28,112 nt of DNA, from IMG/VR virus record IMGVR_UViG_3300031669_000186, positions 1-28,112 of that record; one strand, 5' to 3'. The position numbers and the translations under genes are program-made. The number at the start of each line of letters is the position of its first letter. Within the stretch, counting starts at the first letter, position 1. Shown piece after piece: positions 15,566 to 25,375 of this stretch. The notes beneath the pieces are model-generated. The model was not told the origin of the DNA, ran no database searches, and was given only the letters and a program-made list of their open reading frames with translations. The stretch is from a virus.

Positions 15566-16268
15566 TGTCAGCCTTGAGGATGGCCGCCAGTTGGTCGTCG
15601 CTCAGGTCGTCGGCGGACAGGTGAGCCAGCGCCAAGGGGCCGCCGCCGGGTCCGCTGATTTCCTTCCGGTCAATTTGCATACCCAGGTAACGCGAGAGAT
15701 TGAATAATGCAGCGTCCTTGTCCCGCATGTTGACCTTGATGCCGTTACGGGTCTGCTCTGCGCCAGCGTAAAGAGGATGCCGTTTAAGTTTGCGGGTGTC
15801 CGCGACATAGACTTGAGCAACACCGTCGCCGCCGCACTCGGGGCAATCAGGGGAGGGCTCTACTTGCGGGTCGAACCCGAAGCCGCCCATGCCGTCAGGG
15901 GCGGGCTTGCCGCCATCCACGGCCTTGTCGACCGCGACTGCATATTCAGCTTCGGCCCATTGGTATTGGTGCCCGTAGCCATAGCAATGCCTGCAGCAAG
16001 TACGGCGAACGTCGACCAGCTCATTGGGGTCGGCGAAGGCAATTTTACGCCATTCGGCTAACACCATTTCCGGCGTAATGCTAGCAGCGACGGCCACTTC
16101 CTCTTGTCTATCCCTGATCGCGGCCACAATTTCAGGCAATTTAAGTAAATTGTGAGCCGTTTGTCCCGCCCCGTTTTCCGAGTATCCAGCGCGAATGGCG
16201 GCCTGTGTTGCGTTTTCATCGACGCAATACTCGTTCACAAATCGGCGTTGTTTAGGTGTCAGGCTCAT
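15546..16268 (-). CDS. terminase small subunit with zinc-ribbon-like insert
   Basis: This 240-residue DNA-recognition subunit begins MSLTPKQRRFVNEYCVDENATQAAIRAGYSENGAGQ, the clear helix-turn-helix start of the terminase_2 family. After LAEWRKIAFADPNELVD comes an insert with CCRHCYGYGHQYQW and about 45 residues later CPECGGDGVAQVY. These two CxxC pairs look like a zinc ribbon. The C-terminus has NMRDKDAALFNLSRYLGMQ, which in this family contacts the large subunit. Its ATG overlaps the stop of the upstream zinc protein gene, so the three genes are one operon from the promoter at 16673-16700. Confidence 0.9.
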   Translation of the reverse strand: MSLTPKQRRFVNEYCVDENATQAAIRAGYSENGAGQTAHNLLKLPEIVAAIRDRQEEVAVAASITPEMVLAEWRKIAFADPNELVDVRRTCCRHCYGYGHQYQWAEAEYAVAVDKAVDGGKPAPDGMGGFGFDPQVEPSPDCPECGGDGVAQVYVADTRKLKRHPLYAGAEQTRNGIKVNMRDKDAALFNLSRYLGMQIDRKEISGPGGGPLALAHLSADDLSDDQLAAILKADNAPDEA

Positions 16269-16644
16269 GGTTTCGACAGTCTAACCCGTTCAATAAGCCA
16301 CGGCAAGAAACGCATGCGCCGGAAGAAACAAAACGCCATCCGACGTGACCATTGAAGCATGGTCGACCCGTTCGGTAAATCTTCAAGCCTAGCGCCTTGG
16401 CATCATTCCTTGATATTTCCATGTCGGGGAAACTTCGCGCCATGTTAAAGCTGGCCGACGTTCTCCGGTCGACCATGTCTTCCATAAGGACCGCGATAAC
16501 TTCGCGTGACGGCCACACCTTCCCTAGTAATTTGATATATCCGTGGGCAATTCTCGGCACTTTTCGACCGTTCGATTTCCACACAATCAGGTTATTTTTT
16601 AGCGCAAGTATTGCCTTGATGGCGTCTTTCTCATTGGCGTCCAC
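16252..16644 (-). CDS. small protein with C-terminal C-x3-H-x10-C-x2-C domain
   Basis: The GTG start at 16644 is chosen because AAAGGA lies 6-7 bases upstream and the -10 and -35 of a strong promoter occupy the longer frame. This gives 130 residues. The N-terminal part has HGYIKLLGKVWPSREVIAVL (helical). The C-terminal domain reads LGLKIYRTGRPC, then GH, then SGACVSC. Its C96, H100, C111 and C114 have exactly the same spacing as the plus-strand gene at 16971. I recall this type of putative zinc module at the N-terminus of phage endonuclease VII-like and HNH proteins. As the first gene of the terminase operon it may assist packaging, but this is inference. Confidence 0.75.
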   Translation of the reverse strand: MDANEKDAIKAILALKNNLIVWKSNGRKVPRIAHGYIKLLGKVWPSREVIAVLMEDMVDRRTSASFNMARSFPDMEISRNDAKALGLKIYRTGRPCFNGHVGWRFVSSGACVSCRGLLNGLDCRNHEPDT

Positions 16645-16672
16645 GTTCGTTCCTTTGGTATCTAACGCAATC

Positions 16673-16700
16673 ATTATAACTAGGTTCGACCTCAAGTCAA
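16673..16700 (-). promoter_or_regulatory. terminase operon promoter
   Basis: On the minus strand TTGACT (16700-16695), 16 bases, TATAAT (16678-16673). It precedes the GTG start at 16644 by about 29 bases. The tandem TACACCGT repeats directly abut its -35, suggesting activator or replication-protein binding there. Confidence 0.8.
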
Positions 16701-16970: not shown

Positions 16971-17414
16971 ATGGAAAGAGCCGAAGCGGTAAAACTTGGA
17001 CTTAAGAAGTACAACACGGGTCGACCTTGCAAGCACGGCCACAGCGTTGACCGTTATACCGATAGTGGCGCATGTTCCGCTTGCGTTAAGAACTTGGTCA
17101 CTGTTTCCGCTGGAAATTCGGCCGCCGTCCGGGCCAAAATTGAGCGGGCCACCAAGAAAATTTATTTGTTCTCGCAGCAATCTGGATTTGCCGCGGTAAA
17201 AACAGTGATCGACGGCCTTGTTGCTGCACGCTGCCCGGACCTTCCGGTTGACGTGGTTAATCCGTACCCGTTCGTCGGTAAGCAGGTGTCCCGACTTACC
17301 TATCAAATTTCAGTGCGCGTGCCATTAGAAGACGTCGACGCCGCTTACGCTATGGGTAAAGCCATGCTTGAGCCTGAGCCGGTTACTTTCCCCAAAATCA
17401 AAGAGGTCGGATAA
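16971..17414 (+). CDS. protein with N-terminal C-x3-H-x10-C-x2-C domain
   Basis: This 147-residue protein begins MERAEAVKLGLKKYNTGRPC and carries C20, H24, C35, C38 with the same spacing as the first gene of the divergent terminase operon. After the module comes an Ala/Lys helix (AAVRAKIERATKKIYLFSQQ), then GFAAVKTVIDGLVAARCPDL, ending with a strand-helix pair (YQISVRVPLEDVDAAYAMGKAML). GGAGG precedes the ATG. It overlaps the next gene by one base (TAATG). The C-terminal two-thirds is not recognised. A nucleic-acid-binding role is plausible from the zinc-like module. Confidence 0.75.
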   Translation: MERAEAVKLGLKKYNTGRPCKHGHSVDRYTDSGACSACVKNLVTVSAGNSAAVRAKIERATKKIYLFSQQSGFAAVKTVIDGLVAARCPDLPVDVVNPYPFVGKQVSRLTYQISVRVPLEDVDAAYAMGKAMLEPEPVTFPKIKEVG

Positions 17415-18640: not shown

Positions 18641-18882
18641 GGCGCGAGACTACGGAGAAAGAAACGATAGACCAACTGACAAAGAGCGAGCGCAAGCAGA
18701 TTGCCGAAATACTCGACCGAAGGGCCAACGAGATTGCAGGATTCAGCGGCCATTATTCGCCCGCCAATGTCCTTCAAGTAGCCGCGGGATCCCTTGGCGG
18801 GGCTCCGTGTGGCCGCCAATGTCAAAGGTGCGTGTCGAAGCCGGTTTGCTCAGTGAAGAGGGCTGCCAGGCGGTCGCCGTAG
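18637..18882 (+). pseudogene. truncated phage gene fragment
   Basis: The open frame starts in the GTTATGC of the attC-like boundary. It reads LTKSERKQIAEILDRRANEIAGF, a strongly coding-like segment similar to small phage proteins I recall with 'ERRQIA..LERRANEIA'. After FSGHYSPAN the similarity ends at a copy of the ParB-like gene's 3' end. The frame then enters the pentapeptide gene antisense. No ribosome site is present. It is probably a remnant broken by recombination; it could be chance. Confidence 0.35.
18747..18780. repeat. degenerate copy of the ParB-like gene 3' end (source at 19770-19803)
   Basis: CGGCCATTATTCGCCCGCC is identical at 18747-18765 and 19785-19803, followed in both by a near-identical CTTCAAG. 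At 19785-19803 it covers the ParB-like stop codon and the start of the small membrane protein. The copy at 18747 has no gene attached. Confidence 0.8.
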
Positions 18883-19586
18883 ATCATTTCAAATTCCCCG
18901 CGTTCGGTCACAGTAGCCGGCCACGCGGCGTAATGGGCTTCCACTAGCACCAGGGCGGCCCGGTATTCGATCGCGTGGACGTTGTCGCCATGTTCCCCTT
19001 GGAGCTTGTCCCGGAACGCTTCCACGGTGCCAAAGAAGCGGCCAGCGCGAAGGAATACGCCCTTTTCCGTGAGGAACGCCGCTAGAACGTCTTGCCGCGA
19101 ACCAATTGGACCGACCGCGAAATACGGACGGTCGCCCGTCAGTTTACCCGCGTCCCCAAGGTTCGCGCTGCGAAGGTTCGCGTCCCCAAGGTTCGCGCTG
19201 CGAAGGTTCGCGTCCCCAAGGTTCGCGCTGCGAAGGTCCGCGCCGTAAAGGTTCGCGTCCCCAAGGTCCGCGCCGTAAAGGTTCGCGCTGCGAAGGTTCG
19301 CGTCCCCAAGGTTCGCGCTGCGAAGGTCCGCGCTGCGAAGGTCCGCGCAGCGAAGGTCCGCGCCGTAAAGGTCCGCGTCCCCAAGGTCCGCGCTGCGAAG
19401 GTTCGCGCTGCGAAGGTCCGCGCAGCGAAGGTTCGCGCAGCGAAGGTCCGCGCAGCGAAGGTTCGCGCAGCGAAGGTCCGCTTTCGCGTTTATCGCGGCG
19501 GCCAACGTAATTGCGACGCTGTTGTCTTCGCACTCGTGGCTAAAAAGCACTTCAAGCGAAAAACGACTTTTAATTTCAATCTTCAT
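18822..19586 (-). CDS. pentapeptide-repeat protein
   Basis: This protein has 254 residues from the ATG at 19586 (MKIEIKSRFSLEVLF). GGAGAGG lies eight bases upstream, and earlier in-frame codons would fall in the promoter. Residues 36-145 are 22 uninterrupted A(D/N)LXX pentapeptides using only RC, RS, GD and YG as variable pairs, so a right-handed quadrilateral beta-helix is expected. The C-terminal 110 residues contain GSRQDVLAAFLTEKGVFLRAG and ALVLVEAHYAAW, a domain often attached to such repeats in phages. Pentapeptide proteins can mimic DNA (Qnr-type) or act as scaffolds; which applies is unknown. It has its own operator-bearing promoter. Confidence 0.88.
   Translation of the reverse strand: MKIEIKSRFSLEVLFSHECEDNSVAITLAAAINAKADLRCANLRCADLRCANLRCADLRSANLRSADLGDADLYGADLRCADLRSADLRSANLGDANLRSANLYGADLGDANLYGADLRSANLGDANLRSANLGDANLRSANLGDAGKLTGDRPYFAVGPIGSRQDVLAAFLTEKGVFLRAGRFFGTVEAFRDKLQGEHGDNVHAIEYRAALVLVEAHYAAWPATVTERGEFEMIYGDRLAALFTEQTGFDTHL
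19152..19481 (-). repeat. 22 x 15-bp tandem array encoding pentapeptides
   Basis: Twenty-two 15-bp units (minus strand GCGAACCTTCGCAGC and three close variants) without interruption. The homogeneity at synonymous sites indicates recent expansion or gene conversion and makes the array length prone to change. Confidence 0.95.
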
Positions 19587-19628
19587 TTTATGTACCTCTC
19601 CAGGTGAATTAAGGATGCTACGGGACGA

Positions 19629-19657
19629 ACTATAGATAAATAATTTACCTATGTCGA
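19629..19657 (-). promoter_or_regulatory. promoter with palindromic operator in spacer (site 2)
   Basis: On the minus strand TCGACA (19657-19652), 17 bases, TATAGT (19634-19629). Palindrome at 19632-19652 with half-sites ATAGGTAAAT and ATTTATCTAT. It drives the pentapeptide gene; the ribosome site is about 25 bases downstream of the expected start point. Confidence 0.8.
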
Positions 19658-19665
19658 CGACTATT

Positions 19666-19791
19666 TTATTTCTCGACTTCAACCTTGATGCCCCAGCGGA
19701 AAACCGCGGCATACAGGGCGCCGGCCGCCAATAAAAGCGGCTTTGTCCACCAGCGGAATTTAACGCGCACGGTAATGGAAAGTTCGGCCAT
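19666..19791 (-). CDS. small membrane protein
   Basis: This 41-residue protein starts at an ATG overlapping the ParB-like stop (TAATG). It reads MAELSITVRVKFRWWTKPLL, then LAAGALYAAVFRWG, and ends IKVEVEK. There is one clear transmembrane segment (about 17-31) flanked by basic and aromatic residues. Small proteins with the same 'V.V..K..WW.KP' opening occur in many phages of Proteobacteria. It is translationally coupled to the ParB-like gene. The function is unknown. Confidence 0.75.
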   Translation of the reverse strand: MAELSITVRVKFRWWTKPLLLAAGALYAAVFRWGIKVEVEK

Positions 19792-23750: not shown

Positions 23751-24236
23751 TTAGAGGGTTCCGACTCCCGCGCAAAAAGCAGCATCCCCGCCGCCCGACG
23801 TGACAAGTTGCGCCCAAGCCAATTGCGCCGGCTCCCGGTCGTTGCCGGTGTAGTGCCAGCCGACGGCCTTTACTTCCCGGCTCACGAATTGGCCGATTAC
23901 CTGGCCGACGTGCTGGGGACCAATCAGGACCGGGTGCCAGCCTATCAGGTCGGCGGACTTCATGACCTCGTTAACCTGCTTGGACTCATTCGCCAGGCCG
24001 TAGCGCACAGGGACGCCCCGGGAATCAATCAGGGCGCCGACGTTGTTGCGGAACAAGCGCACCCCCTTGCGTGCCGCTTCCAGGCGCACCACAGCGGACA
24101 CGGCCGCTTCACTGGTGCCCTTTACTTCCGGCGGTAGGTCGTGGCCGCCGTGCATACCAAAGAGGGCTTGCAACTCATTGAGGGCGGCCATAGTGACCCC
24201 GTGGCGCACGGCCCATTGGTAGACGGCGGGGCTCAT
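23751..24236 (-). CDS. VRR-NUC nuclease
   Basis: This protein has 161 residues from the ATG at 24236, which overlaps the methyltransferase stop (ATGA) and has GGAG eight bases upstream. The core reads GVRLFRNNVGALIDSRGVPV, then RYGLANES, then SADLIGWHPVLIGPQHVGQVIG and FVSREVKAVGW. The Asp in ADLIGW and the E-x-K in REVKAVG form the PD-(D/E)xK active site of the VRR-NUC family. Such nucleases are stand-alone in phages and are suspected to act on branched or replicating DNA. Its position after the methyltransferase places it in the DNA metabolism operon. Confidence 0.9.
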   Translation of the reverse strand: MSPAVYQWAVRHGVTMAALNELQALFGMHGGHDLPPEVKGTSEAAVSAVVRLEAARKGVRLFRNNVGALIDSRGVPVRYGLANESKQVNEVMKSADLIGWHPVLIGPQHVGQVIGQFVSREVKAVGWHYTGNDREPAQLAWAQLVTSGGGDAAFCAGVGTL

Positions 24237-25375
24237 GGGCGGCACTCCATGTACGACCTTATCCAGGCTTCGGCGGCTTCCGCGTTGATCGCGTTACCAT
24301 AGGCGCGCAATCGTCCCACTCGGGCGGGATCCCCATTAGCCAGCGGGAATGTGCCGCGCTCAACTGGCCGCCACTTTCCATCCCGGCAGAAGAGCCAATC
24401 AACACCTCGCCAGAAACCGTTAGTCGGGCCGGGTTCGGGTGCGCAGCTAAGTAAACCGCTTGTGCTGATACCGTCAGGCATGTCAGCGCACCCCTGTCTC
24501 CCAAGCGTTTCGATGATTTCTCCGGGTTCTCCACGATCTCGTTGCTTTTCGGGGTCAACCAGCCCGCTAAGTGTGCGTCCGGCGGCAATGCTCCCCCGCC
24601 CTGATTCGGTCCCCCGTTGCTCCCGTCCGTCGCCCGTGGCGTATTCCACCCGGCCAGTTGCCCCGTAGTCTGCAAATTCTCCCCGCCCTGCCGACCCTGT
24701 GTTCCCGCGCCCGTCCCGTTGTTGCTCGTTGGAGTCGGCCAGCCCGCCAATTCGCTGGTTTGAGGAGTCGGCCAGCCCGCCAAACTCGCCGCCCATCCCA
24801 ATTTGTTCGGGGTCGTTCTCCCATCCCCACTGCACACCAGATTCACGTCGTTTGTGCATGGCAGACTGTTCGGAGTCGGCCGCCCAGTACAGTCGGTCGC
24901 GGATGTGCGGCGCGCCGACGCCCGCAGACGGAAACGGGACCGCCCCGAAGGCGTAACCCAAGGCTTCCATGTCAGTTTGTACAAGGTCGACCCATATATC
25001 AGCGTCTTTGCTGCTAACCTGCTCACCAAAGACGACGACAGGGCTTCGCTGTCCAATGAGGTGGAGCCATGCGGGCCATAAATGCCGCTCGTCAGCAAAC
25101 CCATTTCCTTTGCCTGCCGCGCTGAAAGGTTGGCAGGGACAAGAGCCAGTCCAAACAGGGCGGCTATCGGCCCATCCTGCACGTCGCAAGGCGTAGGACC
25201 AAACGCCGACTCCGGCGAAGAAATGACATTGAGTGTATCCGGCAAGGTCGAGGGGGGCAACATCTTCAATACTCCTTTGGTCTACGTCGCCCGGCGCAAT
25301 GTGGCCGGCGGCAATTAGGTTCCGTAACCACTGTGCGGCATACGGGTCGAATTCGTTGTAATAGGCTTTGCTCAT
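24233..25375 (-). CDS. DNA cytosine-5 methyltransferase
   Basis: This 380-residue enzyme transfers methyl from S-adenosylmethionine to cytosine C5. Motif I is [12 protein letters not shown] (52-63), motif IV is [14 protein letters not shown] with catalytic Cys81, motif VI is FGEQV (116-120, where ENV is more usual), motif VIII is RDRLYW (159-164), and motif X is [14 protein letters not shown] near the C-terminus. The target-recognition region (about 170-300) is Gly/Asp/Arg-rich with a doubled GGLADS. A 334-codon ORF in another frame covers this same region. The ATG at 25375 overlaps the stop of a tiny upstream ORF and has no ribosome site of its own, so it is probably coupled. The modification may protect phage DNA from host restriction; the recognition sequence is unknown. 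Confidence 0.92.
24259..25263 (-). CDS. ORF fully embedded in the methyltransferase gene (+1 frame)
   Basis: This frame is open for 334 codons from the ATG at 25263, which has AAAGGAGT (25278-25271) seven bases upstream, much better than the methyltransferase's own start. It reads [17 protein letters not shown], then [39 protein letters not shown] and [16 protein letters not shown] repeated LAGW.TP module follows (five LAGW copies), and it ends [20 protein letters not shown], then DCAPM. I recall the same motifs in proteins predicted beside or overlapping C5 methyltransferases in many phages. The family has no known function. A GC-driven shadow would not be expected to carry a consensus ribosome site or these motifs. 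Real dual coding is inferred. Confidence 0.75.
25271..25278 (-). promoter_or_regulatory. Shine-Dalgarno for the embedded ORF
   Basis: AAAGGAGT on the minus strand, seven bases before the ATG at 25263, inside the methyltransferase coding sequence around residues 33-35. It decides the start of the embedded ORF over the TTG two codons earlier. Confidence 0.8.

Follow-up and report, generated by a model that had tools for sequence, protein, structure and literature searches.

M.EcoHK31I and M.EaeI are C5-methyltransferases that consist of two polypeptides and have the target YGGCCR; M.EaeI is built on the same plan as M.EcoHK31I, the beta polypeptide of which has about 176 amino acids. Lee et al. 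in 1995 are said to have found that an alternative frame within the gene of the large polypeptide of M.EcoHK31I encodes the small one. The large polypeptide of this enzyme carries motifs I-VIII and X and the small one motif IX, and M.AquI is a C5-methyltransferase that is likewise split in two polypeptides (PMC3404938).

The window, i.e. the whole stretch of DNA that was analysed, is a virus record of 28 kb (28,112 nucleotides). It contains genes for a terminase, portal, major head protein, tail sheath, helicase, primase and a ParB-like protein, and is therefore a fragment of a contractile-tailed phage. A cytosine methyltransferase gene, here called frame A, is flanked by the helicase gene and a phrog_93 "endonuclease"; in the E. 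coli relatives the neighbour of the methyltransferase is annotated as VRR-NUC. A sequence-only reading of the window had pointed to a 334-codon open reading frame on the same strand, in another frame of this gene, and it is indeed present at 24259-25263 (minus). This frame B has 334 codons plus a stop, lies in the +1 frame and is nested entirely within the gene of A. Its start lies at A codon 38 and 5' of motif I, and the earlier statement that it spans motif IV onward has to be corrected to motif I (A residues 51-57) onward. The features of the locus are:

24233..25375, minus: frame A, catalytic (alpha-like) subunit of a C5-cytosine methyltransferase, 380 codons, 380 aa
25271..25278, minus: AAAGGAGT, Shine-Dalgarno of B, within the A codons ..AGG AGT (Arg34-Ser35)
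24259..25263, minus: frame B, beta-like subunit with WPTP repeats and motif IX, 334 aa
25205..25225, minus: motif I of A (HFFAGVG, for SAM binding) at A residues 51-57, nearly without variation in A2 and A4
25121..25138, minus: motif IV of A (PCQPFS, with the catalytic cysteine) at A residues 80-85, which vary hardly or not at all
24884..24913, minus: A motif VIII, A residues 155-164
24364..24891, minus: variable region of B; contains LAGWPTP repeats and is homologous to the part of single-chain phage methyltransferases that has LLPTP repeats (hhalign, hmmsearch)
24316..24366, minus: B motif IX, 17 residues, which hhalign places on motif IX of the single-chain methyltransferases (LAPAFSEWMMGWPAGW)
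24287..24313, minus: A motif X (RLRAYGNAI); in hhalign the C-terminus of A falls on motif X only, from the point where the match of B ends

The division of the motifs between A and B is the same as in M.EcoHK31I, as far as the latter is known from its published description (I-VIII and X against IX, with the change at hhalign column 242), and B lies in +1 within A in almost all loci, as the small subunit of M.EcoHK31I reportedly does in its own gene. There are also differences. B is longer (334 aa) than the beta polypeptide of M.EcoHK31I, and the target-recognition domain of that enzyme has been assigned to its large subunit, whereas here the homologue of the single-chain variable region sits in B and the variable region of A is predicted to be disordered. 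The small subunit of M.AquI carries motifs IX and X together, whereas here X is found in A and IX in B, and B is nested wholly inside the gene of A. No restriction enzyme adjoining the phage A/B gene was identified, and the E. coli genomes searched had chromosomal (prophage-like) copies of A/B and no recognisable EcoHK31I.

Elsewhere in the window, two small genes (16252-16695, minus, and 16971-17414, plus) share the motif GRPCxxGH...SGACxxC; neither had a match in Pfam, and their products are possible zinc-binding paralogues. A pentapeptide-repeat protein at 18822-19712 is made from near-identical DNA repeats and long ORFs are open there in several other frames, apparently as artefacts of the repeats, which sets them apart from the overlap in the methyltransferase gene. 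At 786-2669 there is a tape-measure-like protein in which APATTA is repeated in tandem and the C-terminal part contains a lysozyme-like stretch (ESGRGRNMTSPAGAQGHFQFMP).

Frame B is selected as a protein

The start of B has its own signal, with AAAGGAGT exactly 7 bases 5' of its ATG, and there is no Shine-Dalgarno-like site within 20 bases 5' of the ATG of A; the sequence-only reading was right on both points. The codons of A beneath the ribosome site of B are skewed towards AGG-AGY. Arg34 is encoded by AGG in 26 of 75 relatives (P 2e-10), the gene-wide share of AGG being 8%. A GGAG core precedes 40 of 78 B starts compared to 23 of 648 other ATGs, and the P values, computed ignoring relatedness, are supportive rather than exact.

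When the codons of A in the window are shuffled synonymously, a mean of 5.35 stops appears in frame B, which stays open in about one of 1000 shuffles; overall, such shuffles of A gave means of 1.6 to 7.8 stops in frame B. Frame B is open in all 47 non-redundant relatives, but since these were gathered through B the unbiased support rests on the loci collected with A only and on the synonymous sites. Nearly all of the 33 loci in the A-only collection carry a long +1 frame with homology to B. Loci in which the embedded frame of a homologue is open are numerous in viruses and bacteria alike: B is open in +1 in 80/80 viral loci retrieved with B and in 80/80 bacterial loci (mostly Proteobacteria and mostly prophage), A being intact in 79 of the latter.

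The third-base entropy of A at its conserved fourfold sites is 1.74 bits 5' of the B start, falls to 0.67 and 0.53 bits in the best-conserved blocks of the overlap, where individual fourfold sites are invariant in 40 to 55 sequences, and is back at 1.4-1.9 bits over the variable tail of B. Across motif IX of B, where the strongest constraint within this protein is found, the third-codon positions of A are almost invariant; residues 1-45 of B are weakly constrained and conservation begins at about residue 46. Synonymous variation is thus strongly depressed across the overlap, and the earlier suggestion that A and B are constrained together is borne out, the synonymous sites of A being frozen where B is conserved and free outside. 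The identity of B to the window is on average 60%, compared to 33% when simulated from the A protein and codon usage, and the excess has a Z of at least 4.1 in 56/56 comparisons with the window. Frame B is selected as a protein, and is not open by chance.

Frames A and B as candidate subunits of one enzyme

Frame A carries motifs I, IV (PCQ), VI, VIII and X in the order of a C5-cytosine methyltransferase, and the motif residues are near-invariant across 53-57 relatives. It matches phrog_363 (E 1e-85) and PF00145 (E 9e-11, above the cut-off), the latter over residues 76-172 only. Motif IX is absent, the C-terminal half of A being placed by hhalign on motif X only, and neither motif IX nor a folded target-recognition domain was found in the A chain by hhalign and AlphaFold pLDDT. 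The AlphaFold model has a pLDDT of about 90 over much of residues 1-170 (the catalytic core) and 365-378 (the motif X helix), and under 50 over most of residues 182-358. This predicted disordered stretch takes the place of the DNA-binding small domain in M.HhaI, which together with M.HaeIII was the best match in Foldseek, over about 175 residues.

Frame B gave no match in Pfam, NCBIfam, PADLOC or PDB sequences. Its matches are mainly in PHROG families labelled "DNA methyltransferase", with phrog_1008 at E 1e-35, and B and all its 60 aligned relatives match PHROG 1008 and 31772, which carry this label although B lacks the catalytic motifs; presumably the overlapping gene passed on its name. B contains the LAGW.TP modules and the other protein motifs pointed out earlier. 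Single-chain phage C5-methyltransferases have a segment between motifs VIII and X, made up of the variable region and motif IX, to which the C-terminal 200 residues of B are homologous. In such enzymes, e.g. those of ShiLan (gp70) and Hamulus (gp68), a single frame runs from motifs I-VIII through LLPTP repeats and motif IX (SEWMMGWPAGW) to motif X (IIGNGVVPQQ), so that these actinophage enzymes share parts and order with the A/B pair but have them in one chain and not in two frames. The C-terminal half of B aligns up to column 242 with their variable region and motif IX (hhalign probability 96.3, E 1.8e-9), and that of A from column 242 on, i.e. motif X, a match that is weak alone (E 0.06). 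With an HMM of B, 22/22 single-chain enzymes were matched colinearly (best E 8e-9), compared to a best E of 0.35 for shuffled and reversed decoys, the homology passing partly through the repetitive WPTP region.

We consider it probable, at about 0.83, that a C5-cytosine methyltransferase of the M.EcoHK31I kind is here naturally split, with A as its alpha and B as its beta subunit. A would supply motifs I-VIII and X, and with them SAM binding and the catalytic cysteine, while B, started independently at its own ribosome site within A, would supply the variable (target-recognition) region and motif IX. Both proteins would be made, neither would work alone, and the two would assemble into one active enzyme that may methylate the phage genome, most simply as a guard against host restriction. 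The sequence-only reading had proposed a partner, an anti-restriction factor or a regulator of the methyltransferase. As B is homologous to the single-chain variable region and motif IX, the partner is favoured; the other two roles find no support, as the C-terminal two thirds of B resemble the missing part of the same enzyme.

An unlikely alternative is that B is a true protein that was overprinted and has a separate function, as a regulator of the methyltransferase or an anti-restriction or DNA-binding factor, and that the likeness to motif IX is secondary. By hhalign the single-chain enzymes have no match to the first 120 residues of B, which are conserved from about residue 46, and AlphaFold predicts a confident helix plus hairpin at residues 71-117, both of which would suit such a protein; the unmatched part also means that B may do more than supply motif IX. 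However, the most constrained part of B is motif IX, A has neither motif IX nor a folded DNA-binding domain, and a standalone B without A was not found in the searched collections. Modelled alone with AlphaFold, B gave a poor structure (pLDDT 57, pTM 0.26) that had no informative match in a fold search; it might fit a subunit that needs its partner, which is a weak hint.

A programmed frameshift that fuses A and B into one chain, instead of two subunits, is very improbable. The single-chain relatives do have the same segments in one frame, and the IX-X part is in +1 in 26/26 split genes of the mycobacteriophage type, but the ribosome site and start of B are its own and under selection, conservation of B sets in well ahead of the supposed junction, and with motif X back in frame A two opposite shifts would be needed. 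That frame B is a non-coding by-product of the composition of A can practically be dismissed, for although the A protein alone forces about 33% identity in frame B, this is refuted by the codon shuffles, the invariant synonymous sites, the start-signal bias and the excess identity of B.

Distribution and layouts among phages

The nested arrangement of A and B is widespread in phages and mostly unannotated. B was matched in 194 phage records, and among the matches listed most annotate one methyltransferase only at the locus. The K1ind phages annotate B as "Mte8-like", without explanation, and our literature searches gave no description of the overlap in phages. A tblastn search with the C-terminal consensus of B gave only +1-frame matches over methyltransferase genes in the loci examined, including weak ones in mycobacteriophages. 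Matches on plasmids of Klebsiella aerogenes and Citrobacter amalonaticus were considered as standalone genes and rejected, being degenerate or error-bearing copies with no complete pair. In Pseudomonas phage PMG1 (L084) and in L103, frame A is frameshifted near codons 21-25, and in L211 it is a shorter open frame; frame B is open in all three, and the interruption of A is either a sequencing error or a real loss.

Phage enzymes of this group have three layouts, i.e. a single chain, two ORFs with IX and X in +1, and the nested one, and the phase was +1 in every split case examined. In the split loci of the mycobacteriophage type that could be read, IX and X are both in +1 in 26/26, which resembles M.AquI. 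The IX-X ORF of the actinophage and mycobacteriophage-type loci L130 and L150-L179 is always +1 of the I-VIII ORF and becomes open about 46 codons beyond PCQ; it is AquI-like and possibly frameshifted or separately started. In the distant Dcm genes of Synechococcus phage Yong-M2-251 (L132), podovirus ctgrD200 (L122) and Pseudomonas phage PS-1 (L121), the +1 frame holds EWLMGxPPxW just 5' of motif X in frame A, and that of L122 has WPTP repeats as well. The nested layout may from these three genes extend far beyond the family of the window.

An origin by frameshift, with each frame ancestral over a part of the gene, is an attractive possibility. Phage C5-methyltransferases could be a broad class of two-frame enzymes that arose in this way, by mutual overprinting, from a single-chain ancestor, and we give this a little less than an even chance. 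The frameshift would have put the variable region and motif IX in +1, where B keeps the ancestral sequence and the variable region of A is new, and over the catalytic domain B would be the new frame. If this is true, a change in the number of repeats could alter the target-recognition part in both frames at once.

Long nested genes on the same strand are rare and usually doubted, and here is an overlap of about 1 kb that is conserved in many phages and prophages and whose function can be tested. As mostly one methyltransferase is annotated at the locus, cloned or synthesised copies recoded for A would silently lose the second subunit. A split enzyme made of A and B would also explain why motif IX is absent in many phage cytosine methyltransferases of this group.
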